DNA of 64,000 bases from Dactylosporangium siamense (GTDB taxonomy: Bacteria > Actinomycetota > Actinomycetes > Mycobacteriales > Micromonosporaceae): NCBI RefSeq assembly GCF_016862795.1, contig NZ_BONQ01000052.1, positions 1 to 64,000 of the forward strand. The letters are read 5' to 3'. How positions within the stretch are numbered: the first letter of the stretch is position 1; each line of letters begins with the position of its first letter. The notes under the pieces were generated by a model, which was not told the DNA's origin, searched no databases, and worked only from the letters and a program-made list of their open reading frames with translations. The translations under genes and the position numbers were made by a program. Below are positions 11,458-40,334 of this stretch, piece after piece.

Positions 11458-11461
<4 letters not shown>
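10640..11461 (+). CDS. modB: Molybdate ABC transporter, permease
   Basis: A 273-residue inner-membrane permease with about six membrane segments. The EAA loop that docks to the ATPase is EEAAATLGAGRWTTFTHVTLP, near residues 173-193, and CWARALGEFGATITFAGN follows, typical of ModB. The start lies 9 nt after modA and the stop overlaps the modC start (ATGA). The ribosome binding site at the ATG is weak, so translation is probably coupled to modA. Confidence 0.95.
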
Positions 11462-12503
<1,042 letters not shown>

Positions 12504-12516
<13 letters not shown>

Positions 12517-12872: not shown

Positions 12873-12908
12873 GGGACTACGGTACCATGATGGCGATGCC
12901 AGTACCAT
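12866..12908. promoter_or_regulatory. Overlapping divergent leaderless promoters with GTACCAT repeats
   Basis: The 7-bp sequence TACGGTA (12878-12884) contains a -10 hexamer for each strand: TACGGT reading right, 6 nt before the ATG at 12890, and TACCGT reading left, 6 nt before the ATG at 12872. Three direct GTACCAT copies start at 12866, 12882 and 12902, spaced 16 and 20 bp. They are plausible half-sites for the adjacent TetR. Only one polymerase could occupy the shared core at a time. Confidence 0.65.
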
Positions 12909-13492: not shown

Positions 13493-13514
13493 GTTCCGTG
13501 GCAGGATCTTGTCG

Positions 13515-14309: not shown

Positions 14310-14336
14310 GACGCACCGGTGGGTAGGATTCGCGCG

Positions 14337-25101: not shown

Positions 25102-25130
25102 CGCAGATCTTCCTCACGTGTCGCCGTGGA

Positions 25131-25143
25131 TAGGATGCGCAAG
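25131..25143 (+). promoter_or_regulatory. -10 element of the CHAT operon
   Basis: TAGGAT (25131-25136) followed by gcgcaag and the ATG at 25144 repeats the TANNNT-N7-start pattern seen at many genes in the window. It places the transcription start at or next to the first base of the 20-codon ORF. No good alternative promoter lies between it and the CHAT start at 25203. Confidence 0.55.
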
Positions 25144-25206
25144 ATGACGGGCGTGGACGGTCCCCTGATACATCCGGGCGGAAGTATTTCTGGCCCGGTG
25201 GCATGA
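25144..25206 (+). CDS. Leaderless 20-residue ORF overlapping the CHAT start
   Basis: The ORF encodes MTGVDGPLIHPGGSISGPVA and stops at TGA 25204-25206, overlapping the CHAT ATG at 25203 (ATGA). TAGGAT lies 7 nt before its start, so ribosomes would begin at the 5' end of the mRNA and reach the CHAT start by coupling. The CHAT start itself has no strong ribosome binding site. The peptide has no signal or membrane features and ends in a Gly/Pro-rich stretch. It could be purely a coupling leader, or a functional peptide such as a protease substrate or inhibitor. Confidence 0.5.
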   Translation: MTGVDGPLIHPGGSISGPVA

Positions 25207-27803
25207 CCGTCCCCGCCGACCAGCTCCTGCAGGCGATCCAGGCCGACCCGCACCGCGCCGCCGCCGACGCGCGCGAGGCGCTCGCCAAGGCCCGTGCCGT
25301 GCGCGACCACGCCGCCGCGGCCGCGGCGCAGCGCGTGCTGGGGCTTGCCGCGCACGGGCTGCACGACGTGACCGCCGCCGCCGCGCACCTGCGCGCGGCG
25401 ATCCGCTCCGCACACCGGGCCGGGGACGCCACCGTGGAGGCCGAGTGCCGCATGAGCCACGCGCTCGTGCTCGACGACCGCGGCGCGTCCGCGGCGGCGC
25501 TGCGCGAGATCGAGCGGGCCTGCCTGCAGCTCACCGGCCTGCGCCTGGCCCGCGCGACCATGCAGCGGGCGCTGATCCTGCGCCGGGTCGGCCGCGACGA
25601 CGACGCCCTCGCCGGCTATCAACGCGCGCTGACCGCCTTCCGGCAGCACGGCGACGCGCTGTGGGAGGGCCGCGCCCTGGTGAACCGTGGGGTGCTGCGC
25701 GGGTACCGCGGCGAGCTCGGCCCGGCCCGGGCGGACCTCGGCCGCGCGGTGCAGATCTTCACCGACCTGGGGCTGCCCGACGCCGTCGCGCGGACCCAGC
25801 ACAACCTCGGCTTCCTCGCCGCGCAGGCGGGCGACGTGCCGGCCGCGTTGTCGCACTACGACCAGGCCCGTGACCGCCTCGCCTACGTCGGCGCCGCCGC
25901 GGTCACCCAGCTCGACCGGGCCGAACTGCTGCTCACCGCCCGGCTGCGGCCCGAGGCGCGGGCCGCGGTCGGCGAGGCGGTCGAGGCCGCCCGGGCCGGC
26001 GCGTTCTCCTCGCTGCTCGGCCAGGCGCAGCTGCTGTCCGCGCGGATCGAGCTGGTCGGCGGCGACGCCGGCCTCGCCCGGACCCTCGCCCGGCAGGCCC
26101 GGGCCACGTTCACCCGGCAGTCCCGCCCGATCTGGGCGGCGCTCGCCCACCGGGTCGAGCTCGGCGCGAGGGTCGCGGCCGCCGGCGGCAACCGGCGCGT
26201 CCTGCGGGACCTGGAGACGGTCGGCGACCGGCTGGCCGCCGCCGTCTGGCTGCCCAGCGCCTGGGACACCTGGGTCGACGCCGCGCACGTCGCCGTCGAC
26301 CTCGACGACATGGCCACCGCGACCCGCTGCCTCGAGAAGGCCGACGCCGGCCGGCACGCCGGGTCGGCGCCGCTGCGGGCGCGGGCATGGCACGCCGCGG
26401 CACGCATCGCGCTGCGGGAGGACCGGCTGCCGGTCGCCAAGCGCCGGCTCGCCGCCGGCTATCGCGACATCGAGCAGCACCAGGCCACGCTCGGCGCCAC
26501 CGAGCTCGGGATGCGCGGCGGCGCCGTCGGCGTCGACATCGCGGCGGCCAGGCTGCGCCTCAGCCTCGGCGAGGGCGACGCCCGTGGCGCGCTGACCTGG
26601 CTGCAGCGCGTCCGCAGCGCGGCGCTACGGTTGCCGCCGGCCCGCCCGTCCGACGACCCGGTGGTCGAGGCGCTGCTCGCGGAGCTGCGCACGGTCGCGA
26701 CGGAGAGCGCCACGACCGCGATCGACTCGCCGCGCACCGCGCGGCTGCTGCGCCGCCAGCGCGCGATCGAGGCCGAGGTGCGGCAGCGGTCCTGGCTGAG
26801 CGCCGGCACCCCGGTCGCGGCCCGCCGCCCGCCCACGCTCGCTGCCCTGTCCGCGGCGCTCGGCGACCGGGTGCTCGTCGAGCTGGCGGCGCTCGACGGC
26901 CAACTGCACGCGCTGGTGCTCGCCGACGGCCGCGTGCGGCACCGCCGGCTGTGCCCGGTCGAGCCGGTCGCGACGGAGCTGACCGCGCTGCGGTTCGCGA
27001 TCCGCCGGCGGGTCGTCTACCCGGGCACCCGCATCGCCGCCCGCGCCGACGACGCGGCGGCGTACTCCGCCGGCGTCCTCGACCGGCTGCTGCTGCGCCC
27101 CCTCGCCGACCTGCTGGACGAGCGGCCGGTGGTGCTCGTGCCCAGCGGCGCCCTGCACGCCATGCCGTGGGCGATGCTGCCGACCTGCCACGGGCGGGCG
27201 GTGACGGTCAGCCCGTCGTCGTGGCAATGGTGGTGGGCCGCGACCGCGGACCCCCACGGCGGGCACGGGCGGGTCCTGGTCGCCGGGCCCGCGCCGCACC
27301 ACGCGAGTGTCGAGGTCACCGCGCTCGCCGGATGGCTGCCGGCGGTCACCGCCCTCACCGGCGCCGCGGCGACGGTGACCGGCGCGCTGCGCACCCTCGA
27401 CGGCGCGGCGCTGGGGCACGTGGCGAGCCACGGCGTGTTCCGCGCCGACAACCCGATGTTCTCCCACCTGATCCTCGCCGACGGGCCGCTCACCGTGTGC
27501 GACCTGTCGGCGCTGCGCCACCCGCCGGAGCTGCTGGTGCTGTCCTCGTGCGACGCGGGGTTGTCCGCGGTGCACCCCGGCGACGAGCTGCAGGGGCTGG
27601 CGGCGGCGCTGCTCGGGCTCGGCACCCGCACCGTCGTGGCGAGCCTCGGTCCGGTCGACGACGAGGACACGCTGCGGCTCATGACCGACCTGCACCGCCG
27701 CCTCGCCGACGGCGTGGCCCCGGCCGTCGCGCTGGCCCGGGCGCAGTCGGCCGGCGTGGACCGGATCAGCGCGGCGACGTTCATCTGCCTGGGCGCCGGC
27801 TGA
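25203..27803 (+). CDS. TPR-CHAT protein (caspase-like protease)
   Basis: An 866-residue protein. Residues about 1-520 are TPR-like helix pairs (for example AVARTQHNLGFLAAQAGDVPAALSHYDQARDRL). The C-terminal part from about 600 is a CHAT domain (caspase HetF associated with TPRs). The catalytic dyad is present: His743 in HVASHGVF and Cys783 in LVLSSCDAGLS, followed by GDELQGLAAALLGLGTRTVVASLGPVDDEDT. CHAT proteases are activated through the TPR part by a partner or ligand and cut specific proteins; in CRISPR type III-E the TPR-CHAT protein cleaves Csx30, which controls a sigma factor. Here an ECF sigma, a beta-sandwich protein and an S8 protease are adjacent, but no CRISPR genes. The partner and substrate are unknown. 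Confidence 0.92.
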   Translation: MTVPADQLLQAIQADPHRAAADAREALAKARAVRDHAAAAAAQRVLGLAAHGLHDVTAAAAHLRAAIRSAHRAGDATVEAECRMSHALVLDDRGASAAALREIERACLQLTGLRLARATMQRALILRRVGRDDDALAGYQRALTAFRQHGDALWEGRALVNRGVLRGYRGELGPARADLGRAVQIFTDLGLPDAVARTQHNLGFLAAQAGDVPAALSHYDQARDRLAYVGAAAVTQLDRAELLLTARLRPEARAAVGEAVEAARAGAFSSLLGQAQLLSARIELVGGDAGLARTLARQARATFTRQSRPIWAALAHRVELGARVAAAGGNRRVLRDLETVGDRLAAAVWLPSAWDTWVDAAHVAVDLDDMATATRCLEKADAGRHAGSAPLRARAWHAAARIALREDRLPVAKRRLAAGYRDIEQHQATLGATELGMRGGAVGVDIAAARLRLSLGEGDARGALTWLQRVRSAALRLPPARPSDDPVVEALLAELRTVATESATTAIDSPRTARLLRRQRAIEAEVRQRSWLSAGTPVAARRPPTLAALSAALGDRVLVELAALDGQLHALVLADGRVRHRRLCPVEPVATELTALRFAIRRRVVYPGTRIAARADDAAAYSAGVLDRLLLRPLADLLDERPVVLVPSGALHAMPWAMLPTCHGRAVTVSPSSWQWWWAATADPHGGHGRVLVAGPAPHHASVEVTALAGWLPAVTALTGAAATVTGALRTLDGAALGHVASHGVFRADNPMFSHLILADGPLTVCDLSALRHPPELLVLSSCDAGLSAVHPGDELQGLAAALLGLGTRTVVASLGPVDDEDTLRLMTDLHRRLADGVAPAVALARAQSAGVDRISAATFICLGAG

Positions 27804-27807: not shown

Positions 27808-29343
27808 TCAGCCCCGCCAGGCCTGCGCCTCGATGCCGGGCTCGGGCGGCCGCGGGCCGCGGAGCCGGGCCGCCGTGGTGACCGCCGCGGACACCACCGC
27901 TCCCCCGATCGCCACCAGGACGGCGATCCGGGCCGCGGTGTCGTAGCCGTCCGGGTTCCCGGCCGACCAGCCGTAGAACGACCAGCCGATGCCGACCGCG
28001 GTCAGCACCGCCACGCCCAGCACACCCACCGGATGCCACCACCGCAGCCCCCGGTCACCGGCAACCGTCGCCAGGCACCAGACCAGACCCGCCATCGCGA
28101 CCACGATCCCGAAGATGCCGGCGAACCACGTGCCGGCGGCGACCCCGACCAGCAGCGCGAGCGAGCCGAGCACGGTCAGGCTGGCCGCGCCCGCCGCGAG
28201 CCGCCGGCGGCGGGTCAGCACCGGCAGCAGCGCGAGGCTGACCAGGACCGGCACCGCCGACCCGGCCAGCGTGAACTCCAGCCAGACGTGCTGCCCGGCT
28301 CCGACGAGCGGATCAGCCTCCGGCGGGACCCTGTCGGACGGCACCCCGACCCGCTGCCAGGTCCCGTCGGCGAACCTGACGGCGAGGCCGTCGCGCCGGT
28401 TGGCGACGAACACGAGGTGGCCGCCGGTGACCGGCAGCACGGCCACCTCGGCCGAGGCCAGGTCGACGCGGGTCGACCCGAGGTCGTCGACCTGCCTGGC
28501 CAGGAACTCCCGCCGCCCGTCCGAGACCTCCCAGGACATCCGCCAGGTCCGGCCGTCGTCGACGGTCTCCTCGACGGCCATCCGCCCGGGCACGACGCGG
28601 TAGCAGTGCCCTGGCCGGTCGGGCACACACGCCTGGGTGTTCAGCGGCGGCGATGTCGGCGGCAGGGTCGCCGTCGACGGGGGATCCTCCACCCAGGTCC
28701 GGCCGTCGCTCGTCGACAGCCAGGTCGAGGGCCACGACTCCGCGGTCGGGTCGGCGTTGAGCGCGTGGAAGCCGTTGTACAGCCCGACCAGCGCCCGGCC
28801 GTCGACCACCTGGACCCGGGCCACGGCCGGGTAGTACGGGGCGCTGGTGGCGGCGACCGCGAGCACCGCCACCGGGAGCACCAGCGCGGCGCGCACGGTC
28901 CGGGTCCACCGCTCCGGCAGCTCGGCCTCGCGCACCCGGGTCCAGGTCCACCAGGCGACCGCGAGCGCCGGCAACGCGACGAGGTCGGTCCCGTCGGCGA
29001 GCACCGTGGACGGCCGCACCAGGCTCCACGCCGCCGACGCGAACCCGGCCCCGGCCGTCGTGGCCTTCACCCAGGTGAACGCGAGCCCGACGCCGGCCAG
29101 CCCGGCAACGGCGGCGAGCCCGGCCGGCACGCGCGGGACGAGCAGGCACAGCACCGCCGCGACCAGCGCCGGGGCGAAGACGAGCCCGGCGACGTCGCTC
29201 AGCTTGCCGGTGACCGCTCCCGGGTACGCCGCCTTCAGCAGGTGATCGTTGACCAGCAGCACGACAACCGCGCCGACGGTGACCGGGTGGGTCATCCAGG
29301 CAAGGGCGACCGCGACGTGCCGCATACCGGAGGTGCGCTCCAT
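27808..29343 (-). CDS. Hypothetical multi-TM protein with extracytoplasmic beta-rich domain
   Basis: A 511-residue membrane protein. The N-terminal third has about four to five membrane segments (VTVGAVVVLLVNDHLL, LSDVAGLVFAPALVAAVLCLLV and onward). The central part, about residues 165-345, is soluble and beta-rich with repeated Trp-containing STSDGRTWVEDP and VDDGRTWRMSWEV blades that resemble WD/sialidase-like (BNR) repeats. The C-terminal part has further membrane segments. A second ATG six codons downstream is also possible. It converges on the CHAT gene with 4 bp between the stops. Function unknown; a link to the CHAT cassette is not shown. Confidence 0.75.
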   Translation of the reverse strand: MERTSGMRHVAVALAWMTHPVTVGAVVVLLVNDHLLKAAYPGAVTGKLSDVAGLVFAPALVAAVLCLLVPRVPAGLAAVAGLAGVGLAFTWVKATTAGAGFASAAWSLVRPSTVLADGTDLVALPALAVAWWTWTRVREAELPERWTRTVRAALVLPVAVLAVAATSAPYYPAVARVQVVDGRALVGLYNGFHALNADPTAESWPSTWLSTSDGRTWVEDPPSTATLPPTSPPLNTQACVPDRPGHCYRVVPGRMAVEETVDDGRTWRMSWEVSDGRREFLARQVDDLGSTRVDLASAEVAVLPVTGGHLVFVANRRDGLAVRFADGTWQRVGVPSDRVPPEADPLVGAGQHVWLEFTLAGSAVPVLVSLALLPVLTRRRRLAAGAASLTVLGSLALLVGVAAGTWFAGIFGIVVAMAGLVWCLATVAGDRGLRWWHPVGVLGVAVLTAVGIGWSFYGWSAGNPDGYDTAARIAVLVAIGGAVVSAAVTTAARLRGPRPPEPGIEAQAWRG

Positions 29344-29583
29344 CGGCCCATCATCCGGCTCCTCGGCGACGCCATCAGCCCCGTTGCGCGACCGTTATCG
29401 GCGCTCACCGGTCACCGCCGCCAGGTGGTCGGCGACCGGCGGGTGCGGCGCCTGGGACACCCGGGCCACCTCGGCGCAACTGCGGCATCGCCCAGCCGGC
29501 GGGGCGGAGCTGGACCGGCAGCACCGGGGCGCGCAGCATGTCCACGAAGATCGGGCCGAGCACGCAGGGCCTCGACCGGCGCG

Positions 29584-29703
29584 ATGGTGGCGGTGTCCAA
29601 CGTGCTGCCGTACGCCGTGCTGGTCGGCCTGGTCACGTGGACCGTCACGCACGGCAGGTGCCAGGCCCGCGCCGGCCGGGCGGCAGCGGTCGCCGTCGAA
29701 TAG
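29584..29703 (+). CDS. Possible 39-residue single-TM peptide
   Basis: The ATG at 29584 opens a short frame with GC3-rich codons that would encode a hydrophobic helix (VLPYAVLVGLVTWTVTH) and a basic tail. Its TAG stop lies in the TAGGGT that serves as -10 for the next gene. No ribosome binding site is clear. On the opposite strand of 29400-29550 a fragment reading FVDMLRAPVLPVQLRPAGW also looks protein-like but has no intact frame. The rest of the 29344-29713 gap holds nothing I can assign. Confidence 0.25.
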   Translation: MVAVSNVLPYAVLVGLVTWTVTHGRCQARAGRAAAVAVE

Positions 29704-29713
29704 GGTCGGGTGC

Positions 29714-30097
29714 GTGGAACACTTGATCCGGCCGGACGGGCTGCCACCGGTCAACGGCTACAGCCACGCGGTCCGCTTCTCCGGGGCGATGGTCGCCGTG
29801 TCCGGCCAGGTGCCGGTGGACGGCGCGGGGCAGCTCATCGGCGCGGACGACCCGGAGGCGCAGGTCCGCCAGGTGTTCACCAACCTGGCCGCGGCCCTCG
29901 CCGCGGCCGGCTCCGGGCTGGACCGGGTCGTCAAGCTGACCGTGTACCTGACCGACCTCGCCGACCTCGCCGTCTTCCGCACCGTCCGCGACGAGTTCAT
30001 CGACCCGGCCGCGCCGCCGGCAAGCTCACTGGTCCAGGTGAGCGGCCTGGTGCACCCCGCGTTCCGGGTGGAGGTCGACGCGCTCGCGGTGGCTTGA
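29714..30097 (+). CDS. RidA/YjgF/UK114-family protein
   Basis: A 127-residue RidA-fold protein: RPDGLPPVNGYSHAVRFSGAMVAVSGQVPVDGAGQLIGADDPEAQVRQVFTNLAAALAAAGSGLDRVVKLTVYLTDL is diagnostic. RidA proper deaminates reactive enamines with an Arg before the last strands; here that region reads PPASSLVQVSGL without the Arg, so it is more likely one of the other Rid subgroups. The GTG at 29714 lies 7 nt after TAGGGT (29701-29706), a leaderless start. It is convergent with the conservon GTPase gene. Confidence 0.9.
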   Translation: MEHLIRPDGLPPVNGYSHAVRFSGAMVAVSGQVPVDGAGQLIGADDPEAQVRQVFTNLAAALAAAGSGLDRVVKLTVYLTDLADLAVFRTVRDEFIDPAAPPASSLVQVSGLVHPAFRVEVDALAVA

Positions 30098-30157
30098 CGG
30101 CCTACCAGCTGCCTGCGCAGTTGCACCTGCCGCCGGGGGCACTGCGGCGCGGGACCG

Positions 30158-30781
30158 TCAAGCCGATGCCGCCGCGCTGCGTTGTGCCCGCTGCTGTCGT
30201 GCGATGCGCTGGGCATGTGTCACCAGGCTGACGAGCACCGCCTTTGCCGACGCCCGGTCGCGAGCGTCACAGAGGATGACGGGGACATCCAGCGCCAGGT
30301 CGAGCGCGATGCGGACCTCCTCGGGCGTGTGCCGGCGGGGGGTCCCGTCGAAGCAGTTGACACCGATGACGAACGGGATGTTGCGCCGCTCGAAGTAGTC
30401 GATGCTCGGGAAGCTGTCGGCGAGCCGGCGGGTGTCGGCGAGCACGATGGCTCCCAGGGCTCCGAGGGCGAGTTCGTCCCAGACGAACAGGAACCGGTCC
30501 TGGCCGGGCGTACCGAACAGGTACACCACGACATCGGTGCTGATGGTGATCCGGCCGAAGTCCATGGCGACGGTGGTCGTGGTCTTTTCGTCCACGCCCT
30601 CGAGGTTGTCGATACCGATGCTCGCCGTGGTGATGCGTTCCTCGGTCTGCAGCGGCTGGATTTCGCTCACCGTACCGACGAGCGTCGTCTTGCCCGCGCC
30701 GAAGCCGCCCGCGACGAGGATCTTCGTGGCCCTGGGCATGCCTGCCGAGCCGTCGCGCCGATCAGAGGTTTCGGATGCCAT
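30158..30781 (-). CDS. cvnD: Conservon Ras-like GTP/ATP-binding protein
   Basis: A 207-residue small GTPase-like protein. G1 is VAGGFGAGKTTLVG (about residues 23-36), G3 is LFGTPGQDRF (88-97), and the later loop is GVNCFDG instead of NKxD. It is the fourth member of a conservon (cvnA-D in Streptomyces), where it forms a membrane-associated switch with the roadblock and DUF742 proteins under the sensor kinase. The ATG at 30781 overlaps the 3' end of the DUF742 gene by 20 bp, so translation is coupled. Confidence 0.93.
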   Translation of the reverse strand: MASETSDRRDGSAGMPRATKILVAGGFGAGKTTLVGTVSEIQPLQTEERITTASIGIDNLEGVDEKTTTTVAMDFGRITISTDVVVYLFGTPGQDRFLFVWDELALGALGAIVLADTRRLADSFPSIDYFERRNIPFVIGVNCFDGTPRRHTPEEVRIALDLALDVPVILCDARDRASAKAVLVSLVTHAQRIARQQRAQRSAAASA

Positions 30782-31148
30782 GAAGCACCTCTTCAAAAAG
30801 GTCGTCGTCCGGCAGGGCCGGCACCGGATCCGGGTTGTTGGCCAAGATGAGCAACCGGCTGAGCAGATCGCCGAGCAGGACTCGGATGGTGCCGACGGGC
30901 AGGTTGAGGTGCGCGGACAGTTCCGCGACGGAGGTCGGCTGTTGGCAGCGCCGGAGGATGGCCTCGTGTTCGGGGCCGAGGTCGAGGACGTCGGCACCTG
31001 AGACGCTGCGACTCGTCATGATCATCGAGACCAGGTCGAAGCGGCCGTTCGCTTGGGTCCGGCCGCCCGTCATTGCATAGGGGCGCACGACCGGGCCGGC
31101 GTCGAGGTCGACCCAGATCTCGTCGGGGTCGTGCAGTGGGGTGTCCAT
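30762..31148 (-). CDS. cvnC: Conservon DUF742 protein
   Basis: A 128-residue DUF742 protein: VVRPYAMTGGRTQANGRFDLVSMIMTS, then a winged-helix-like EHEAILRRCQQPTSVAELSAHLNLPVGTIRVLLGDLLSRLLI. In conservons this protein bridges the roadblock protein and the GTPase, and its wHTH fold may bind partners rather than DNA. It starts 10 bp after the roadblock gene and ends inside the GTPase gene. Confidence 0.93.
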   Translation of the reverse strand: MDTPLHDPDEIWVDLDAGPVVRPYAMTGGRTQANGRFDLVSMIMTSRSVSGADVLDLGPEHEAILRRCQQPTSVAELSAHLNLPVGTIRVLLGDLLSRLLILANNPDPVPALPDDDLFEEVLHGIRNL

Positions 31149-31158
31149 TACCTCGGCG

Positions 31159-31581
31159 TCACCTGCCGTTGATCTGGCCGGAGTGCGCTCGCGGCTGGGT
31201 TGCGAGATGTTCGGTGACGCGTTGCACCAGCATCTCCATTTCGTAGGCGACGATGCCCAGGTCGCTGTTCGGTCCGCTGATGACTGCGAGGCAGGTTCCG
31301 TGGCCGGCCGCGATGACGAACAGGTACCCGTCCTCGAACTCCAGCACGGTCTGGCGGAGGACGCCGAGGTTGAAGAGCGGGCTGACGCTGCGGGCCAGGC
31401 TCTGCAGTCCGGAGGCACTGGCGGACACATGCTCGGCAAGGTCGCGTTGGATCTCCTGCGAGGAGGCGACGCGCAGCCCGTCGGCAGAGAGCACGACGGC
31501 ATGTCGCACCTCCGCCACCCGGGTGACCAGGTCTTGTAACAGCCAGGTCAGATCGCCGGGGGTGGTCGATTCCTGCACCAC
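31159..31581 (-). CDS. cvnB: Conservon roadblock/LC7-domain protein
   Basis: A 140-residue Roadblock/LC7 protein: LTWLLQDLVTRVAEVRHAVVLSADGLRVASS, then VLEFEDGYLFVIAAGHGTCLAVISGPNSDLGIVAYEMEMLVQRV. Such domains dimerise and act as GTPase partners, as MglB does for MglA. The GTG at 31581 is chosen because GAAGGG lies upstream; an in-frame GTG at 31626 gives a longer, atypical N-terminus. It is the second gene of the conservon, between the kinase and the DUF742 gene. Confidence 0.92.
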   Translation of the reverse strand: MVQESTTPGDLTWLLQDLVTRVAEVRHAVVLSADGLRVASSQEIQRDLAEHVSASASGLQSLARSVSPLFNLGVLRQTVLEFEDGYLFVIAAGHGTCLAVISGPNSDLGIVAYEMEMLVQRVTEHLATQPRAHSGQINGR

Positions 31582-31629
31582 GATGGTCCCTTCTTGACGT
31601 CCGGTTGCGGTTGTCCGTGGTGTCACGAC

Positions 31630-34086
31630 TTACTCGGCGGGGGCGGCGTGTGTGCCGGATGTGCTGGGCGGAGTGGCGGGCGTCGGCAGGTTCAAGGCGG
31701 CTGGCTCGTCCCAGCCATCGGCGCCAGATGCCTGCCGTCGGGCTGCGCGCGAGCCCTGCTGGAACGCGGCCATCCGCGCGCCGGCCGACTCGGCGGAGCG
31801 CGGCGCCAGGGCGGGCACCTCGGCCGGGGGCGCACTCTCACCCTCGGGCGCTTTCCGGGAGCGTCGTGGCAGACCGAAGACGGTGTCCGGCTCTACGTCT
31901 GGGCCGGTGGCCGGCTCTGCGGACAACCCCATGGTGAGCTCGACGGCCGGGGCTGTGGCCAGGGAGTCGAACGGGTCCGGCGAGGCAGCGTGCTTCGCGG
32001 CGGGCGCCGCACCGTTCGACGGGGCAAGCACCGCGACGGCGGTGTGCCGTTCCTCGGGGAGGGAGACCATCGAGGACTCCACCAATGCTCCGGACGGTGC
32101 GATCGGGGCGGTGACGACCGGTAGCGCGGCTGCGGTCGCATCGGCGTCGGGGCCGTCCTGAGCCGGCGTGGGCGCGTCGGCCTGGGGATCGATCAGTGCT
32201 TTCGGGATCAGCACGACTGCGGTCGTGCCGCCGTACGGCGACCGGCGCAGGTGCACGCTGATGCCATGCCGCTTGGCGAACAGGGCAACGACGTAAAGGC
32301 CGAGCCGGACGTTGCTCGAACGCTGGAACTCCGGTGGATTGACCAGCGACTCGTTGGCGGCGGCCAGCGCCGTCTCGCCCATGCCGAGGCCGCGGTCTTC
32401 GATCTCCACCACGTAGCCGTTGCTGACGTGCTCGCCGCCGACCTGCACCTTGGTGTGTGGTGGCGAGAACCTGGTGGCGTTCTCCACGAGCTCGGCGAGC
32501 AGGTGGATGACGTCGCCCACAGCGCGGCCGGCAAGGCCGGGCGCCGAGCTGAGCCGCACGGTGACACGGGCGTAGTCCTCGATCTCACCGATCGCCGCGC
32601 GCAGGACGTCGATCATCGGGACCGGCTTACGCCACGCACGCCCCGACTTCCCGCCGGAGAGCACGATCAGGTTTTCCGCGTTGCGCCGCATCCGGGTGGC
32701 GAGGTGGTCGACGGCGTAGAGGTCGGCCAGCTTCTCCTCGTCGGTTTCCTTGTGCTCCATGGCGTCAAGCGTCGTGATCTGCCGGTGCAGCAGCGCCTGG
32801 GAGCGTCGTGCGATGTCGGTGAGACGAGCCCTGAAGCTGTGGCGCAGCTCGGCCTGCTCAACGGCGGCGTGGACGGCAGCTTGCTGCACCGAGTTGAACG
32901 CGTGGCCGACCTGCCCGATCTCGTCCGTGCCGAATTCCAGGGGCGGCGCCTCGACGTTGACGTCGACCTGTTCACCGCGACGCAGTTTGTCCATGACCCC
33001 GGGCAGCCGCGAGGTGGCCAGCTCGTCTGCTGCGTCGCGCAGCCGGACGAGTTGGGCAAGCAGCTTCCGGGCAGTGGTGATGGAAATCACGATGGACGCG
33101 ATGACAGCGATCAGGCCGAGACCGCCGGCCAGCAGAAGCCGGACCACCACGCCGATGACGGCAGGCTCGGCCCGCTGCAGCGTCTGATCGGCAGAGGCCA
33201 ATTCGAATTGGCGCAGCTCGCCGGCGGCCGCGGTGATCACGCTGGTCCAGCCTGCCGCGGTGACCGGTGGTGCCACGCCCGCCCGGGCACCGGTGACGAG
33301 TTGGTCCTCGACGGTGCGGAGCTTCGTCAACGCGTCGCCGCCGATGAGCCTGTCGTACTGTCCCCGCTCGGGGATCGGCAGGTTGACCGCTGCCTCGGCG
33401 TAGGCGTAGCGCTGGATGCTGACCAGCCGGGCGAGGTCGGCCGGCTCGGTGCCGGTGAACCGCCCGGCGGCGAACACGCCCGCGAGCAGAGCGTCCTCCT
33501 GGGACAGGACCTCCCGCGCTCGGGTCAACGCGATCAGGGTCCGCGACTGCGCGGCGATCTCAGGGTCATCCAGGGCGGAGATGGAGCCGTAGACCCGGAA
33601 CGCACCGTCGATGATCTTCGTGTATTCGCCGACCACGTTCGTCGCGGCACCGCTGTCCACAGCGGCGCGCTGGGGCTGCAGCTGGTCCAGCAGCACTGCC
33701 ATCTCGCTGATGCGGGTCTTGAGGGTGCCGTCCGCCGCCCAGGACACCCCCGAGCTCGCTGTCGACGCCCGCCAAGCGGCGACGACTTCATCAGTGTTCC
33801 GGCGCTGGTCGGTCACAGCCTGGCGCTGGGCATCACGACCGGTGGGACTGCTGCGATACACCACCGACAGCCGCCGCTCGGCCTGCAGCGCAGCCACCAG
33901 CGACTCGGTCGGCCGGCCCACGCCCGGGTCAAGAGTGCTGACCCACAGCAGGTTGAGGCCCTCGCGCAACGTCACGAACGCGGCGAATCCCCACAGCGCA
34001 ACGAGCGACAGCAGCAGAGCGACAACCTTCGCTCGCAGCCGCGTGCCACGCGGTTGACCAGCCGGGCGCTTCCTCGCGAAGATCAT
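31630..34086 (-). CDS. cvnA: Conservon sensor histidine kinase with nitrate/nitrite-sensing-type domain
   Basis: An 818-residue membrane kinase. TM1 is at about residues 22-42, an extracytoplasmic all-helical NIT-type sensor spans about 55-310, TM2 about 318-343, and HAMP follows to about 415. The kinase core has AVDHLATRMRRNAENLIVLSG (likely phosphoacceptor helix), an ATPase N-box ELVENATRFSPP, DRGLGM and GLYVVALFAKRHG. The C-terminal 180 residues are low-complexity Pro/Ala/Glu-rich. No response regulator follows; as in other conservons, output should pass through the roadblock/GTPase module. It is divergent from the diterpene cyclase gene with 181 bp between starts. Confidence 0.93.
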   Translation of the reverse strand: MIFARKRPAGQPRGTRLRAKVVALLLSLVALWGFAAFVTLREGLNLLWVSTLDPGVGRPTESLVAALQAERRLSVVYRSSPTGRDAQRQAVTDQRRNTDEVVAAWRASTASSGVSWAADGTLKTRISEMAVLLDQLQPQRAAVDSGAATNVVGEYTKIIDGAFRVYGSISALDDPEIAAQSRTLIALTRAREVLSQEDALLAGVFAAGRFTGTEPADLARLVSIQRYAYAEAAVNLPIPERGQYDRLIGGDALTKLRTVEDQLVTGARAGVAPPVTAAGWTSVITAAAGELRQFELASADQTLQRAEPAVIGVVVRLLLAGGLGLIAVIASIVISITTARKLLAQLVRLRDAADELATSRLPGVMDKLRRGEQVDVNVEAPPLEFGTDEIGQVGHAFNSVQQAAVHAAVEQAELRHSFRARLTDIARRSQALLHRQITTLDAMEHKETDEEKLADLYAVDHLATRMRRNAENLIVLSGGKSGRAWRKPVPMIDVLRAAIGEIEDYARVTVRLSSAPGLAGRAVGDVIHLLAELVENATRFSPPHTKVQVGGEHVSNGYVVEIEDRGLGMGETALAAANESLVNPPEFQRSSNVRLGLYVVALFAKRHGISVHLRRSPYGGTTAVVLIPKALIDPQADAPTPAQDGPDADATAAALPVVTAPIAPSGALVESSMVSLPEERHTAVAVLAPSNGAAPAAKHAASPDPFDSLATAPAVELTMGLSAEPATGPDVEPDTVFGLPRRSRKAPEGESAPPAEVPALAPRSAESAGARMAAFQQGSRAARRQASGADGWDEPAALNLPTPATPPSTSGTHAAPAE

Positions 34087-34267
34087 TTACCCGTCCCGAT
34101 CCGAGAGGTAGGGCCAGTCTTTTTTGTTTGAAACCGGCCGCGGACACCACCGGGCGCGACCTCTTGTCCGCTATCCGGCACAGACACGGCGGGCAATGTA
34201 TCAGTTTTGGAAAGTGCCATACACTCAGGCCCTAATGATCAAATGGTCGAAGGCCTTGGGTGAATGA
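34087..34267. promoter_or_regulatory. AT-rich divergent promoter region, conservon/diterpene cyclase
   Basis: This 181-bp gap is clearly AT-richer than its surroundings (ttttttgtttgaaa near 34118-34132, tatcagttttggaaag near 34199-34214). TACACT (34220-34225) is a possible -10 for the cyclase, with no good -35. No strong dyad for a known regulator family is seen. The shared, AT-rich region suggests the two operons are co-regulated. Confidence 0.45.
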
Positions 34268-35974
34268 ATGCCAGACCGAATTGCCGCAGGTCAACCATCG
34301 CCGACCCGGCACGACACCGTCGCCGCACTCCTGGACGAGATCACCACTGACCCGGGGGGCGTGGTGAGCGCCTCGATCTACGACACCGCCCGACTCGTCA
34401 GCCTTACCCCTTCGCTGCCCGGGCATACCGCCCGGCTGCGGTTCCTCCTTACACAGCAGCGCAGCGACGGATGCTGGGGAGAGGCAGACGGCTACGCGCT
34501 CGTGCCGACACTGAGCGCCACCGAAGCCATTCTCGCCACCCTCCACCGGCCGTCGGCGGCCGGCATCGAGGCCGGGCAACTGCGCAGCTCGGCGCTGCGG
34601 GGCCTCACCGCGCTGCGGCGCTGGTCGGGCAGCCACGAGTCCGTGCCTGACACGATCGCGGTTGAGGTCGTCGTGCCTGCCCTGATCGCCGCCATCAACA
34701 GCCACCTCGACGGCCCGGATCCCGTCGTCGCCAGCGACGTTCGGCTGGCCGTGCCGGCAGGCATGAACCCCGACGCGGCAAGGCATCTGACGGCCCGCGT
34801 GCGTGACCACGCCGGCAGCGACCCGCAGACCTGGTGGGCGTCGCTGGAGGTGCTCGGCGCGGACGCTGCCCGCATCGCCACGGTGCGACCGCACGAGCAG
34901 GGAATGATCGCCTGCTCGCCGGCGGCAACCGCAGCATGGCTGGGCGAGAACCCGGACCACAGCACGCCCGCCGCGGCAGCCGCGGCGCGGTATCTCAGCC
35001 GGCTGCAGGCGGCCGGCGGCGGACCGGTCGCCGGTGTCTGGCCGATCACCTTCTTCGAGCGGTCCTGGGTCCTGAGCGTCCTGGCGCCGGCCATGTCCAG
35101 CCAGCCGGCACCCGCCAGCGTCCTGGACAGCCTCGACGGCGCGCTCGGACCAGGCGGCGCAAGCGCCGCGCCCAGCCTCCCGCCGGACTGCGACGACGCC
35201 GCGGTGGTGCTCACCGCACTGCACCGCCACGGCCGGCCACGGCCCGTCGACCCGCTCCTGACCTACTACACCGGCAGCTATTTCCGGTGCTTCCCAACCG
35301 AGCGAACCGCGTCGGTGAGCACCACCGCGCACGCCCTCGAGACGCTGCACGAGGCGATCGTCGCCCAGCCGGCCGAGCGCCTGCGGCTGGACCCGATCGC
35401 CGAGGCGACCGCTGCCTGGCTGGTAGAGACTCAAACGGCTGACGGCAGTTGGTGGGACAAATGGCATGCCTCGCCGTACTACGCGACGGCCTGCTGTGTC
35501 GACGCGCTGACGCCCTACACCGTCGTCCTGGCCGGATCCACGGCCACAACGACGGTGGGTGCAGCGGTCAAGCACGCCGTCCAGCGGGCCGTGGCGTGGA
35601 CAGTGGCCACACAGCACACCGATGGGTCATGGGGCCGCTGGGGCGGCAGCGTCGAAGAGACGGCCTACGCCGTGCAGATCCTCACCCGTGCCGGCGGCGT
35701 CGGTCCCGATGTCGCCGCAGCGGTTGCGGCCGGCGCGGCATACCTGCGGCAGCAGCACGGCAGTGGCCCGCACCGCGGTCTGTGGCACGCCAAGGACCTC
35801 TACGCCCCAGTGCGGGTGATCCGGGCCACCCGGCTCGCCGCGCTCGCCGCTGCGGAGCGGTTCGCGGTCACCTCCGGTGCAGCACGAAACGCCCCGGCTG
35901 GCGCGGCCGCAGTGCCGCGGTTGCCCGCGCCACGAGAGGCCCAGACCCGACGAGCTCTGGCCGATGCCGACTGA
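34268..35974 (+). CDS. Class II diterpene cyclase (copalyl-diphosphate-synthase-like)
   Basis: A 568-residue alpha-barrel terpene cyclase. The proton-donating DxDD motif is D307-C-D-D310 in LPPDCDDAAVVL. QW-like motifs are QQRSDGCWGEADGYALVPTLSATEAILATL near residue 65, QTADGSWWDKWHASPYYATACCVDAL near 393 and QHTDGSWGRWGGSVEETAYAVQIL near 450. It should protonate and cyclise GGPP to a labdane-type bicyclic diphosphate (copalyl, halimadienyl or similar). No class I DDxxD is present, which fits the separate class I synthase encoded nearby. The 3' end overlaps the convergent P450 gene by 107 bp. The ATG has only a weak ribosome binding site. Confidence 0.9.
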   Translation: MPDRIAAGQPSPTRHDTVAALLDEITTDPGGVVSASIYDTARLVSLTPSLPGHTARLRFLLTQQRSDGCWGEADGYALVPTLSATEAILATLHRPSAAGIEAGQLRSSALRGLTALRRWSGSHESVPDTIAVEVVVPALIAAINSHLDGPDPVVASDVRLAVPAGMNPDAARHLTARVRDHAGSDPQTWWASLEVLGADAARIATVRPHEQGMIACSPAATAAWLGENPDHSTPAAAAAARYLSRLQAAGGGPVAGVWPITFFERSWVLSVLAPAMSSQPAPASVLDSLDGALGPGGASAAPSLPPDCDDAAVVLTALHRHGRPRPVDPLLTYYTGSYFRCFPTERTASVSTTAHALETLHEAIVAQPAERLRLDPIAEATAAWLVETQTADGSWWDKWHASPYYATACCVDALTPYTVVLAGSTATTTVGAAVKHAVQRAVAWTVATQHTDGSWGRWGGSVEETAYAVQILTRAGGVGPDVAAAVAAGAAYLRQQHGSGPHRGLWHAKDLYAPVRVIRATRLAALAAAERFAVTSGAARNAPAGAAAVPRLPAPREAQTRRALADAD

Positions 35975-37196
35975 GCACGGCCGCAACGACGAGCTGGGCC
36001 TCGGCGGTGAACAGGTGATTGCCCAGGCATTGATGCGGGCCGCCGCCGAACGGTAGGAACGCATACCGGTGCCGGCGCGGCGCCGCCGGCCCGAACCGGT
36101 CCGGATCGAACCGGTGGGGATCCGGCCACGCCGTCGGCAGCCGGTGCATCACGTACGGGCTGACCAGCACCGTCGCCCCGGCCCGGATCGGTACACCGTC
36201 GATCACGTCAGGCTCGGCCGCCGTGCGCGGCACGATCCAGCCCGCGGGCCACAACCGCATCGTCTCCTGCAGCACCTGCCGGGTGTAGACCAGCCGGTCC
36301 AGGTGCTCAGGAGCCGGGGCTGCGTCGCCGACGACCGCGTCGACCTCCTCGACGACCCGCGCCGCGACGTCAGGATGCGCATCCAGCGCCATCCACAGCC
36401 ACGACAGGGTCAGCGCCGTTGCCTCGGTGCCGGCGACGAACATCGACACCACGTCGTCGCGGACCTGCCGGTCGGTCAACGCCGCACCGTTCTCGTCGCG
36501 GGCCGCGACAAGCAGCGACAGGATGTCACCGTCGCCGCCACCATCGCCGCGGACCCGTTGCACATGCGGGTACACGATGTCGTCGATCTGGCGCACGGCC
36601 CGGCGAAACCGTTGATCGCCGGGGACTGGCAGCCAGTCGGGCGCGAACGGCAGCGCGATGCGCCATCCCAGGGCACCGAACGCGGTGGAGATGGCCGCGC
36701 CGAGCACCCCTGCCTCTCCGCTGGGTATCCGGTCGGCGAAGAAGGCGCGGATGAGAGCCCGGAACACCACACGGGTCATACCCTCCACGAGCTCCACCGG
36801 TCGGCCGGCCCGCCCATCGGCCTCGAGCTCGGCGACGGCGGCCACGATCGCGTCGGCCATCGCGTCGAGGACGCCACGGACCGCGCGCGCTGTGAAGATC
36901 GGTTGCAGCAGGTTCCGGCTGCGCTGCCAGCTGGGCCCGTCGCTGGCGATGCCGTCACCCTCCAGCCGACGCAGCGGCTTCCACAGCATGCCGTCGCGGA
37001 CGTACTGCGACGACCGCTCGCGCAGCACCAGTTGCACATGGTCGGCACTTGTCAGCAGCAGGGGCCGGACCGGGCCGACGTCCAGACGCACAATCGCGCC
37101 GTCGTTGGCCGCGCCGAGACGCTCCAGCGCGGCCAGCGGGTCACGGGCCAAGGCCGGGACGGCCCGCCAGATCGGCTCGCGGTGCATCATCGGCAT
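35868..37196 (-). CDS. Cytochrome P450 of the diterpene cluster
   Basis: A 442-residue P450. The I-helix is MFVAGTEATALTLSWLW, the K-helix ExxR is ETMRLW, and the heme loop is FLPFGGGPHQCLGNHL with the axial thiolate at Cys390. The architecture is closer to the CYP102/eukaryote-like branch than to small soluble CYP105-type enzymes. It lies 3 bp after the class I terpene synthase gene on the same strand and should oxidise the diterpene product. No ferredoxin gene is adjacent. ATGs at 37196, 37190 and 37187 are all possible; AGGGG favours 37190. The last 107 bp overlap the cyclase gene tail to tail. Confidence 0.93.
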   Translation of the reverse strand: MPMMHREPIWRAVPALARDPLAALERLGAANDGAIVRLDVGPVRPLLLTSADHVQLVLRERSSQYVRDGMLWKPLRRLEGDGIASDGPSWQRSRNLLQPIFTARAVRGVLDAMADAIVAAVAELEADGRAGRPVELVEGMTRVVFRALIRAFFADRIPSGEAGVLGAAISTAFGALGWRIALPFAPDWLPVPGDQRFRRAVRQIDDIVYPHVQRVRGDGGGDGDILSLLVAARDENGAALTDRQVRDDVVSMFVAGTEATALTLSWLWMALDAHPDVAARVVEEVDAVVGDAAPAPEHLDRLVYTRQVLQETMRLWPAGWIVPRTAAEPDVIDGVPIRAGATVLVSPYVMHRLPTAWPDPHRFDPDRFGPAAPRRHRYAFLPFGGGPHQCLGNHLFTAEAQLVVAAVLSRHRPELVGSGPLVARATAALRPRQPGRFVLHRR

Positions 37197-37199
37197 CCC

Positions 37200-38120
37200 C
37201 TAACGCAGATCGGTGACGCGGTAGACGGCGACTGCGACGTGCAGGCTCCGGCGCAGCACACTCGCCTCGACGACATCGCGCAGCAGATCGTCATGCAGTC
37301 GCACGTAGCGGTCGATCCGGCGCTCGAACGCTGCGACGTCGACCACGTCCAATCGCTGCAGCAGCAGGACATTGAGCCGGCCAGCAGCACGGTCACGATC
37401 GACCGACGCCAGGTCGTTGGCAATCCGGATCGCGCGGGAGGCAGCCACCAATGCCTTGTCGATCCTTGATGACTTGACCGCCGTCGGTGACGCCTTGGCG
37501 AGGATCAGCAGAAGGTAGGCGAAACTGCGGTAGTTGACATGGTGCTCGGCCACGGCCAGGTACTCCACAACCGTCGGCGCACCAGCGCGTCCCTGCTGGA
37601 TCTGCTGGGCACGGACGGTGTGTTGGACGCCGGCGTCGATCGCAGCGCACAGAGCATCAGCGAATCGGGCGAGCAACGTCGGAGCCTTCGCCAGCCTGAG
37701 CTCGGCGAGCAGCTCGGCGAGCATCGCGTCGAGCGCCGGCGCCGGCGCGCTGGGCGCATCCGTGGCCCGCACGAGCGTGCTGAGGCGACCCGCCAGCCCG
37801 GTGAGCACAGCGGGATCGGCGTCCACGTCATCGAGGGCGTCATCGACGAGAAACGTCCAGAGGCAGTACCGCGCCAACACCATCGCGCTGGAGGCGGGCA
37901 GATCCGGCGCGATGGCGGTCACGACCTTGGCCAGTCGCTGGGTCAGGTTGCGGTCGGGGCGCGCTCCATGGGTGGATGCCCACCTCCACAGATCCGCACC
38001 GATCTCCGCAGCCATGGTGCTCGAGGGTCGGTCATCGGCTTGCCGCGCAACGGCCCTCGACGCCACCAGGGCCTCCTGCGACTCTGGCGGGAGGGCCACT
38101 CCTGGAACTTGGACGGCCAC
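37200..38120 (-). CDS. Class I diterpene synthase
   Basis: A 306-residue helical class I terpene synthase. The Asp-rich metal motif is D93-D-A-L-D-D98 (LVDDALDDVD). The NSE/DTE motif is N235-D-L-A-S239-V-D-R-D243, an NDxxSxxxD variant, followed by RAAGRLN. It should ionise the bicyclic diphosphate made by the class II cyclase and release a diterpene hydrocarbon or alcohol. It is the first gene of the synthase-P450 operon. The GTG at 38120 is the longest start; ATG codons near residue 36 are possible but would remove a conserved-looking helix. Confidence 0.88.
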   Translation of the reverse strand: MAVQVPGVALPPESQEALVASRAVARQADDRPSSTMAAEIGADLWRWASTHGARPDRNLTQRLAKVVTAIAPDLPASSAMVLARYCLWTFLVDDALDDVDADPAVLTGLAGRLSTLVRATDAPSAPAPALDAMLAELLAELRLAKAPTLLARFADALCAAIDAGVQHTVRAQQIQQGRAGAPTVVEYLAVAEHHVNYRSFAYLLLILAKASPTAVKSSRIDKALVAASRAIRIANDLASVDRDRAAGRLNVLLLQRLDVVDVAAFERRIDRYVRLHDDLLRDVVEASVLRRSLHVAVAVYRVTDLR

Positions 38121-38584
38121 TCTTCATCGTTCCCGCGAATAGATGATCATCGCAAGACGATCCACAGCCGACCGACCTGCGATCAGGGCCACCGCACCGC
38201 ACCCCGAGGGGGCCGGAGCGCGATAGACAGGGATGGTTGCGGCGTTCGACGACATGGACCAGCCCCTTACCCCCTGAGGCATCCATTACCGATCACCGAT
38301 GCCACATCACGAAGCTACGTGATCACGAACGGCAAAGACATGGTGGGCGGTGAGAGGGTGACCACATCGGACGGTCGCGGCCGCCCGGACTGCCCACATA
38401 CTTCCTGAAGATCAACAATGTCGTTTGTGGCAGAACGACCTACCCGAGTGTGCGGCACGATGGGTGCCGCCGCGACGACCCGTGGGCGCGGCGGGCGTGA
38501 CATTACTCCCCGGGCGGGCCGGCACCGGGAATCGTGAGCGGGGCAGCCGACCGGACGCGCGGTTGATAGGGTCCGGGCGCTTCG
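38121..38584. other. Intergenic region upstream of the terpene synthase, with one dyad
   Basis: This 464-bp region lies between divergent genes. The clearest element is the inverted repeat ATCACG-AAGCTA-CGTGAT at 38306-38323, a plausible operator. TAGGGT at 38567-38572 is the likely -10 of the following membrane-protein gene. A 14-codon ATG frame at 38233-38277 is open but has no support. No other gene or RNA is seen. Confidence 0.5.
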
Positions 38585-39040
38585 ATGACCGTCGACTTCA
38601 CGGGGGCTGCCATGCACGAGAATCCGGCCATTGCCAGGCCTGCCGGCGACGCCGCTCAGCGCACCGTCAAACTCGGGGTCGCTGCGGCGGCGCTGCTCGC
38701 GGCGCTCAACCTGGGACTTGCCGTCACGTTGTTCGTCGTCGCCGGGGTGGCCGGGGGGAAGAACACCGTGCCGTGCATCATCGTGGGCGTCCCGGTGCTG
38801 ATCATGGGTGCCGTCGGGCTCGTCGGGGTCCGGCTGATGCAGCAGGGCAAGCGCCGCGGTGCCAACGTCGCGGCCAAGGGCACATGGCTGCTGTTCCTCA
38901 CGCCGCTGGCGTTCGCCATGGGCGCGTTCGAGGACGGGTTCCACCCGCTCTGGCTGATCCTTGCCGCGGTCGTCCTCGCCGTGCTGGTCGGCGCCACGAT
39001 CCTCGTCGACCGGGCCAGCCACCAGCTCCCCGCCGCGTAG
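38585..39040 (+). CDS. Hypothetical four-TM membrane protein
   Basis: A 151-residue protein with membrane segments at about residues 30-52, 62-84, 97-115 and 121-141 and short loops. No motif is recognised. TAGGGT lies 12 nt before the ATG at 38585, giving a leader of only a few bases; a second ATG at 38612 has gggggc upstream and would give a 142-residue product with all four segments intact. It ends at a strong hairpin shared with the convergent hydrolase gene. Confidence 0.75.
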   Translation: MTVDFTGAAMHENPAIARPAGDAAQRTVKLGVAAAALLAALNLGLAVTLFVVAGVAGGKNTVPCIIVGVPVLIMGAVGLVGVRLMQQGKRRGANVAAKGTWLLFLTPLAFAMGAFEDGFHPLWLILAAVVLAVLVGATILVDRASHQLPAA

Positions 39041-39041
39041 G

Positions 39042-39077
39042 GCGGTGACCGCCCCGGATTGCCGGGACGGTCACCGC
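39042..39077. terminator. Bidirectional hairpin terminator
   Basis: Arms gcggtgaccg (39042-39051) and cggtcaccgc (39068-39077) pair perfectly around a 16-nt loop in the 45-bp gap between convergent stops at 39040 and 39086. There is no T tract, as usual in this GC range. It should serve both genes. Confidence 0.7.
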
Positions 39078-39085
39078 TGCCACCC

Positions 39086-39931
39086 TCAGGCCGGCCCGCA
39101 GAACACGGTGATCAGCCCGGCGAGCTGCTCGGGCGCGGTGAACGGATACAGATGGTTGCCGCCGTCGATCGTGGCGACCGTCGCGCCGGGGATCAGCCCG
39201 GCGAGATGGGCCACGAGCCGGTGGAACGGCGGCGGGCTGGCACTGCCCTGGATCAGCAGGACCCGCTGCCTCAGCCGGGCGGCGGCCGGCCGGCCGAGGC
39301 TCCACCCGTTGATGGCGGGGATCTCGCCGGTGAAGAGATACCGGCTGCTGTCCTCGGCGGCCGCGACCAGGTCGGCGCCGAGCGCGCTCGTCATGACCTC
39401 GCGGAACGACGGACCGCACACCGCCGCCATGAAGACCTCGAACGCGGCCGGGAGGTCGCCTCGCGCGGTCGCCGCCATCGCCGCGCCGATCGCCGGACCC
39501 AGCATGGCGTGGATCGCCTCGAGGTCCTCGGGCGCGACCAGGCTGTCGACCAGCGGGGGTTCGCTGAGCATGAGCGTGCGGACCAGATCGGGATGGTCGA
39601 AGGTGAGCTGCATGGCGATCGTGGTGCCCGACGAGTGGGCGAGCACGTGGGCGGGTGCCGCGCCGAGGTGCCGTAGCAGCGCGGCGCCGTGCCCGGCGTG
39701 GTCGGCGATGCTCAGCCCGTCCGGCGCGGGCGCACCGGTGTAGCCGGCCCGCACCATGCGGATCACGCGGTACCCCTTGAGCACGGGAAGGGCGGCAAGG
39801 GGGGTGAACCAGTCGGCGGACCCGGCGGCGTGGATCAGCAGCAGGGGCGCGCCGTCGCCGCCGGAGTCGGTGTAGGCGACCTCGGCGCCGTCGATGCGCC
39901 ACCGGGTCAGTTCCGGAATCGTCAGGGTCAT
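39086..39931 (-). CDS. Alpha/beta hydrolase
   Basis: A 281-residue alpha/beta-hydrolase. The oxyanion strand is LLLIHAAGSADWF, the nucleophile elbow is LAHSSGTTIAMQL (Ser in H-S-S-G), and the catalytic His is in GGNHLYPFTAPEQ near the C-terminus. Substrate is unknown; the fold covers esterases, epoxide hydrolases and C-C hydrolases. It follows the VOC gene by 19 bp on the same strand and is under the shared TetR-controlled promoter at 40335-40393. Confidence 0.88.
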   Translation of the reverse strand: MTLTIPELTRWRIDGAEVAYTDSGGDGAPLLLIHAAGSADWFTPLAALPVLKGYRVIRMVRAGYTGAPAPDGLSIADHAGHGAALLRHLGAAPAHVLAHSSGTTIAMQLTFDHPDLVRTLMLSEPPLVDSLVAPEDLEAIHAMLGPAIGAAMAATARGDLPAAFEVFMAAVCGPSFREVMTSALGADLVAAAEDSSRYLFTGEIPAINGWSLGRPAAARLRQRVLLIQGSASPPPFHRLVAHLAGLIPGATVATIDGGNHLYPFTAPEQLAGLITVFCGPA

Positions 39932-39950
39932 GATGGTTTTCTCCTCTGGG

Positions 39951-40334
39951 TCAGTCGGCGTAGAGGCGGATCTCGATGCCGTCGGGATCGTGCAACCCGA
40001 TCAGCACCGAACCGCCGTTGTGCCCGGTCACGACGCCGCCGTGGGCCTGGCCCAGCTCGTCGAGCCGGTGTTGCCAGGCCTGGACGGCGGCTCTGCTCGG
40101 CACCGCGAGGGCGACGGGGTCGAAGCCGGCCAGGGCGGCGGACCGCTCCGGATCGAGGCGCAGCGCCAGCCGGAGCGAACCGGTCGGATCGGCGAGGGCG
40201 AGACCTCTGAGCACCCCGTCCTCGATGAACTCGATCTCCACGTGCAGGCCGAGCACCTCGCCGTACCAGGCGCGGCTGCGGTCCAGATCCGCGACGGGCA
40301 GCTTGACGTGGTGAAAGCCGGAGAGTTCAGACAT
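39951..40334 (-). CDS. VOC (glyoxalase/dioxygenase-fold) protein
   Basis: A 127-residue vicinal-oxygen-chelate protein with two beta-alpha-beta-beta-beta units: FHHVKLPVADLDRSRAWYGEVLG at the N-terminus and GSVLIGLHDPDGIEIRLYAD at the C-terminus. Metal-type residues are the first His pair region and Glu in DGIEIRL. Function is unknown. The ATG at 40334 is preferred because AGGAG lies 8 nt upstream. It is first in the operon with the alpha/beta hydrolase and divergent from tetR. Confidence 0.85.
   Translation of the reverse strand: MSELSGFHHVKLPVADLDRSRAWYGEVLGLHVEIEFIEDGVLRGLALADPTGSLRLALRLDPERSAALAGFDPVALAVPSRAAVQAWQHRLDELGQAHGGVVTGHNGGSVLIGLHDPDGIEIRLYAD

Follow-up and report, generated by a model that had tools for sequence, protein, structure and literature searches.

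The window analysed here is a 64,000-nucleotide stretch of Dactylosporangium siamense DNA (NZ_BONQ01000052.1, positions 1 to 64,000; contig C52 of a 12.7 Mb genome in 296 contigs), and the subject of this report is a block of seven genes within it, comprising a conservon (cvnA to cvnD), a class II diterpene cyclase, a class I terpene synthase and a cytochrome P450 (Table 1). The open reading frame listing and Pfam bear out an earlier note on this DNA in that a full conservon (30158-34086, minus strand) lies head-to-head with the class II gene (34268-35974, plus strand), with the CvnA kinase, roadblock CvnB, DUF742 CvnC and GTPase CvnD all in the expected order. The window cvnB is one of 12 roadblock/LC7 genes in the genome, and CvnD has 62-72% identity to its relatives at the linked loci described below. 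The class II gene, whose GC content at third codon positions (GC3) is low for the window, was missed by codon-position gene calling, and BLAST and Pfam were used instead.

Table 1. Genes and intergenic region of the conservon-diterpenoid block, in window coordinates
Feature	Position	Strand	Signature and remarks
cvnD, small GTPase, 193 aa	30158..30739	-	PF03029 1.7e-29; alternative longer GTG start at 30997 possible
cvnC, DUF742	30762..31148	-	PF05331 8.3e-31
cvnB, roadblock/LC7	31159..31626	-	PF03259 2e-24; start at 31581 possible
cvnA, sensor histidine-kinase-like, 818 aa	31630..34086	-	PF08376 NIT 3.3e-44, HAMP, HATPase
Intergenic region cvnA/class II cyclase, 181 bp	34087..34267	.	GC 0.558 vs 0.732 for the window
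Class II diterpene cyclase	34268..35974	+	PF13243 1.6e-10; DCDD at residues 307-310
Cytochrome P450	35868..37196	-	PF00067 1.9e-63
Class I terpene synthase	37200..38120	-	PF19086 5.7e-16; DDALDD, NDLASVDRD

A class I synthase and a P450 had also been placed beyond the cyclase. Both are present, but the P450 comes first, and its gene is convergent with that of the cyclase with a 107-nt overlap (35868-35974). The class I and P450 genes, 3 nt apart on the minus strand, form a unit of their own in direction of transcription, so only the cyclase gene and the conservon can share the intergenic region; the length and low GC content noted for that region hold, while its sharing by the whole diterpene unit does not. 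No sigma-70-type promoter match was found in 34000-34400 by a simple scan, nor any Rfam match in 28000-40000. The GC3 of the seven genes is 0.80-0.88, compared with an average of 0.933 (sd 0.033) for the 67 genes called in the window and 0.953 and 0.914 for those flanking the block, so that the whole block stands apart in composition, which would fit its having arrived in a single piece.

Among solved structures the class II enzyme is closest to the ent-copalyl diphosphate synthase PtmT2 (5bp8, 3.3e-111, 376 bits), which shares the DxDD motif but belongs to a family with no conservon. It is followed by the 7xkx enzyme (9.1e-67, 229 bits), which we take to be a drimenyl synthase; a DxDTT motif, presumed to mark drimenyl (sesquiterpene) cyclases, was dropped as a guide since 7xkx aligned with DGDD and PtmT2 had the higher score. 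Contig C39 of G000 (8651-14613) also has, close to a prenyl synthase, a 720-aa frame containing two class I synthase domains, presumably geosmin-synthase-like from its layout. The class I enzyme of the block matched only Stt4548 (1.2e-9) and Sat1646 (2.8e-5) in the PDB, both of which are isopimara-8,15-diene synthases (PMC9814573). The predicted motifs were found as DCDD in class II and DDALDD in class I, whereas the second class I motif, NDLASVDRD, ends in D and not in the expected E. Homology to PtmT2 and to Sat1646/Stt4548 agrees with the proposed class II plus class I logic, and the product is likely a labdane-related diterpene. None of the eight PF00348 prenyl synthase matches in the genome lies on contig C52. 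The closest relatives of the class I enzyme among 354 family genomes have 38-40% identity and were found in G142 and G141 (Longispora), where they sit far from the conservons.

A seven-gene module in related actinomycetes

The 354 family genomes, which include matches to Longispora, Phytohabitans, Virgisporangium and Micromonospora (sequence-checked) and so place the window in Micromonosporaceae, were searched for relatives of the class II enzyme (E-value ≤ 1e-20), and these were found in 179, including 145 of the 160 genomes G143-G302, which among the matches listed are all of genus g23. The loci examined consisted of 24 from the family (four of the same genus and 20 nearly all best-ranked), 80 named loci from a class II profile search and 40 further family loci drawn among the matches listed. 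Removal of eight duplicates (five between collections and three more) and addition of the window gave 137 non-redundant loci.

Related genomes had been proposed as the place to look for the same arrangement, its absence from all relatives being what would speak against a link. This conservon was found at the class II gene in 96 of the 137 loci (window included), and each of the 40 sampled class II matches in the family had conservon genes alongside. In 76 of the 96 the genes lie on one strand in the order P450, class I, class II, cvnA, cvnB, cvnC, cvnD, and one more has this order with class I in two pieces; the remainder are rearranged, truncated at contig ends or without a detected class I or P450 gene. 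Only three have the head-to-head form, namely the window, L079 (Longispora albida) and L059 (G142). As the co-directional form is usual, the shared divergent promoter described in the earlier note is not the basis of the link. The module is carried by Micromonosporaceae, Streptosporangiaceae and Thermomonosporaceae, and this conservon is absent from the class II loci examined in Pseudonocardiaceae, Streptomyces and Nocardiaceae (Rhodococcus, Nocardia). An Amycolatopsis locus (L125) was excluded, its conservon being unrelated (34% in CvnA).

Trees were built quickly, with SH-aLRT support only, and the window rows lie on long branches. Linked CvnA proteins (59) form one clade (support 95), apart from nine paralogs of the window's genome and four other CvnA, and linked P450s (58, window included) likewise form one clade (support 100), in which L079 and the window are the deepest branches. 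That the seven genes are chance neighbors can practically be dismissed: this conservon is missing at 41 of the 137 class II loci, but a conserved gene order, which would speak against chance, is found over three families, and CvnA and P450 each form a single clade. The 95 further non-redundant loci and the single linked CvnA clade support the proposed dedication of the conservon to a diterpenoid locus, probably of labdane-related type. The class II tree differs from the P450 and CvnA trees, in which the window lineage forms deep branches of the linked clade, in that it has a DxDT clade of 59 rows (56 linked) with the window, L079 and L059 in a separate clade outside. Among linked rows (99, including three duplicates), 96 have DxD(T/S) and three DxDD, these being the head-to-head ones, while the 41 unlinked rows comprise 38 with DxDD and three with DADT. 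Presumably the general acid of DxDD is retained in the linked DxD(T/S) proteins. The DxDD of the window lineage may be either an old state or the result of a cyclase replacement. Judged by gene order and by these trees, the seven-gene module is real and old, with a conservon of a separate CvnA lineage, and within the module the window branches deeply and has its genes rearranged.

Among the nearest known relatives are the sat cluster and the nearly identical terp1 cluster of S. arenicola, whose three enzymes (SaCPS, SaDTS/Sat1646 and CYP1051A1) yield isopimara-8,15-dien-19-ol (PMC9814573). The window resembles terp1/sat in having a class II and a class I enzyme with one P450, the latter in the same clade. 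It differs in its class II motif (DCDD, not DADT), in its distant class I enzyme (DDALD, not EDWxxD; Sat1646 match 2.8e-5), which is not of the Sat1646 type, and in its rearranged genes. The available accounts of terp1/sat name three enzymes and no conservon (PMC9814573, PMC10301674). In G148 the class I protein has 97.9% identity to Sat1646 over 284 residues, which marks G148 as a Salinispora-type genome, and the CHARACTERISED member of the module there, L180, has P450, class I, class II (motif DADT, as in SaCPS) and, downstream, the full cvnA-D on one strand. The characterized isopimaradienol operon thus carries this conservon too. Differently oxidised pimaranes have been reported from Verrucosispora, Micromonospora and Microbispora (PMC10301674, PMC9814573), which are also taxa carrying the module.

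Some loci depart from the usual content. G005 has two copies of the module (L024, L025) with similar signaling genes and different sensor and enzymes. In Nonomuraea, class I is either inverted between class II and cvnA or undetected (five and three, respectively, of L123, L132, L145, L150, L156, L134, L151 and L154), and enzyme content there is changing. L142 and L144 (Micromonospora) and L092 and L121 (Actinomadura) have a second conservon gene set immediately downstream of the module.

Variation of the CvnA sensor with the biosynthetic genes

In the window CvnA, hydropathy places membrane segments at about residues 17-42 and 306-344, and as these bracket the NIT domain (63-301), the latter is predicted to lie outside the cell. 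A model of residues 1-430 (mean pLDDT 85.9) resembles NasR (4akk, E-value 5.7e-7). The module shares with described conservons (Cvn8, CvnE and CvnF types; PMC13343842) the cvnA-D order, the four domain signatures and the NIT-HAMP-HATPase CvnA, and differs in its coupling to terpene synthases, in a P450 paired with an NIT-bearing CvnA and in a hypervariable NIT.

This variability was compared in 15 genus g23 genomes (105 pairs), leaving out three loci without a CvnA match and two with a broken control CvnA. Linked CvnA proteins had median identities of 0.44 in NIT and 0.91 in the kinase, while those of a terpene-free orthologous conservon in the same genomes, taken as control, had 0.72 and 0.81; linked NIT identity fell below control NIT in 100 of the 105 pairs. 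Among 37 control CvnA (including the two broken ones, stops as X), pairs with kinase identity of at least 0.95 kept NIT at 0.83-0.98 (18 pairs), while linked pairs at this level had a median NIT of 0.45 and a minimum of 0.37 (154 pairs). Column entropy is raised in the NIT helices, with no such rise in HAMP or kinase. The linked CvnA thus combine a hypervariable sensor with a conserved cytoplasmic half, the pattern sought in a polymorphic signal receptor.

Co-variation with the enzymes was examined in the 86 of 96 linked loci having all parts. With the other parts held, the largest partial rank correlation of NIT was that with P450 (0.32), followed by class II (0.18), and kinase with CvnD gave 0.49; permutation counts from partial Mantel tests serve only for description, because related loci lack independence. 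For this reason 43 disjoint pairs were also taken, nearest by HAMP-kinase-CvnBCD (the core). In these the Spearman correlation of NIT was 0.93 with P450, 0.87 with class I, 0.83 with class II and 0.65 with the core, and the difference of P450 over core was significant (bootstrap 0.113-0.486). Among the 35 pairs with core identity of at least 0.85, all 14 with NIT below 0.55 have P450 at or below 0.67, and the other 21 all have P450 at or above 0.71. Sensor type therefore co-segregates with the putative signal-making genes, as would be expected of a signal and its receptor, although contiguity of the NIT and enzyme genes could also yield this.

It was considered whether the P450 is an accessory of the CvnE type, a heme sensor touching the kinase rather than a biosynthetic enzyme, since some conservons have P450 accessory genes whose products were modeled at the HATPase domain (PMC13343842); Streptomyces examples of this kind had been cited as a precedent for the present locus. 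In that source, however, the P450 (CvnE) and GAF (CvnF) accessories belong to CvnA without NIT, whereas NIT was found in all 24 linked CvnA scanned, and the precedent does not carry over. With NIT and CvnD held, no co-variation of the P450 with the kinase is left (-0.16), and CYP1051A1 of terp1 is reported to take part in product formation (PMC9814573), so that an accessory role is very improbable.

Individual loci are informative with regard to a third account, that of a joint exchange by homologous recombination, in which the 5′ part of cvnA would move along with the neighboring enzyme genes and the sensor would not recognise the product. L114 and L118 (Microbispora) occupy the same chromosomal site, with matched neighbors of 89-98% identity and cvnB-D of 94-97%, and yet P450 (53%), class I (51%) and class II (71%) have diverged, as has NIT (0.43-0.46, kinase 0.99). 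Flanks conserved on both sides would suit such an exchange, as would the contiguity of enzyme genes and NIT in the usual order. L072 also fits, with a P450 and NIT like those of L155, which adjoin each other, and kinase, cvnB, cvnC and synthases like those of L143. On the other hand, the boundary of the variable part lies between NIT and HAMP, the first 44 CvnA residues are conserved too (0.89, L114/L118), the control conservon keeps its NIT, and L149 and L213 are close in P450 (0.74) and NIT (0.56-0.61) and less so in the intervening class I (0.59) and class II (0.53). Block exchange is considered improbable as the explanation. L024 and L025, both in G005, have kinases 0.88 identical and differ in NIT, P450 and synthases.

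The window NIT is 0.48 identical to that of Longispora and at most 0.43 to those of 21 other linked loci with kinase equal (next best 0.44 in a larger alignment), which may offer thin agreement with sensing of the product.

Elsewhere in the window, a subtilase gene (PF00082, minus strand) is divergent from that of a TPR-CHAT protein (PF12770, plus strand) with 101 bp between them (23986-27803), a protease pair of note, and is followed by a gene for a 505-aa protein with no Pfam match (27808-29325, minus strand).

Proposed product sensing and its implications

The parallel change of an outer sensor domain and the terpene enzymes suggests that it is the terpene to which the sensor responds. Direct contact between P450 and NIT is unlikely, the former being taken as intracellular and the latter as extracellular, which leaves the product as the simplest link. 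Geranylgeranyl diphosphate made elsewhere in the genome would be converted by the class II and class I enzymes to a labdane-related diterpene, which the P450 would oxidise. The oxidised product would leave the cell or reside in the membrane, where the outer NIT domain of CvnA may recognise the strain's own compound, with CvnA then setting the CvnD GTPase through CvnB and CvnC. On balance we lean slightly towards a conservon that senses the oxidised diterpenoid of its own cluster.

Several points weigh against this. The coupling of NIT to P450 does not significantly exceed that to class II (bootstrap -0.013 to 0.229), and NIT has no link to class I once P450 and core are held (-0.06). In the usual order NIT adjoins the enzyme genes, and a single recombination tract could change them all. 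The second, terpene-free conservons of L092 and L121 have NIT of 0.50 at kinase 0.91 (one pair), so variable NIT is not confined to the linked CvnA clade. For the window itself the NIT argument draws on three loci, and the NIT domain takes its name from the sensing of nitrate and nitrite.

In an alternative reading, the conservon would sense an outside cue, such as nitrate or a neighbor's molecule, and switch the diterpenoid genes on or off, the diterpenoid being an effector and not a signal. Adjacency at the 96 loci is compatible with such control, and Cvn8 represses an adjacent lanthipeptide cluster (PMC13343842). Moreover, fermentations of Salinispora PKU-MA00418 had no detected diterpenoids (PMC9814573) and the terp1 product was unseen in pure culture (PMC10301674), so that expression looks conditional. 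An outside cue, though, gives no reason for NIT to diverge with P450 while kinase and CvnBCD remain at 94-99% (L114/L118), and it is regarded as unlikely. Sensing of the product is thus favored, followed by control through another cue and then by block exchange, and feedback control of the enzymes could go with either of the first two.

If the product is sensed, the locus would work in a manner like comQXPA of Bacillus, with a terpenoid as signal and the conservon as receptor pathway. There too the signal-making genes lie beside a receptor kinase, ComP, which varies in its N-terminal part and is conserved in its cytoplasmic part (PMC4008528), and distinct types define communication groups (PMC4408185). 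The present module differs in having terpenoid enzymes and no peptide, an NIT sensor, and a GTPase pathway where comQXPA has a response regulator.

Both conservons and terp1-type enzymes were already known; the constant link between them and the polymorphism of the sensor are apparently new, as searches of the open-access literature found no report of either. We know of no role for terp1-type diterpenoids. The inputs of conservons are largely unexplored, and terpenes are not mentioned in the available part of the same account (PMC13343842). A seven-gene module with an enzyme-tracking sensor joins these two questions, and a laboratory actinomycete would allow both to be tested. Just short of an even chance is given to the wider proposal of a polymorphic diterpenoid pheromone system widespread among actinomycetes, in which each lineage would pair its own oxidised labdane or pimarane with a cognate CvnA NIT and share the CvnB-C-D GTPase pathway; conservons, at least of this clade, would then be receptors for self-made terpenoids and the 'orphan' diterpenes of the terp1 type would be signals. 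If the product is indeed sensed, the system would parallel peptide quorum sensing with a terpenoid in the peptide's place and would occur, judged by class II content, in 145 of the 160 genomes of the best-sampled genus, and it would offer a route to switching on silent diterpenoid genes.

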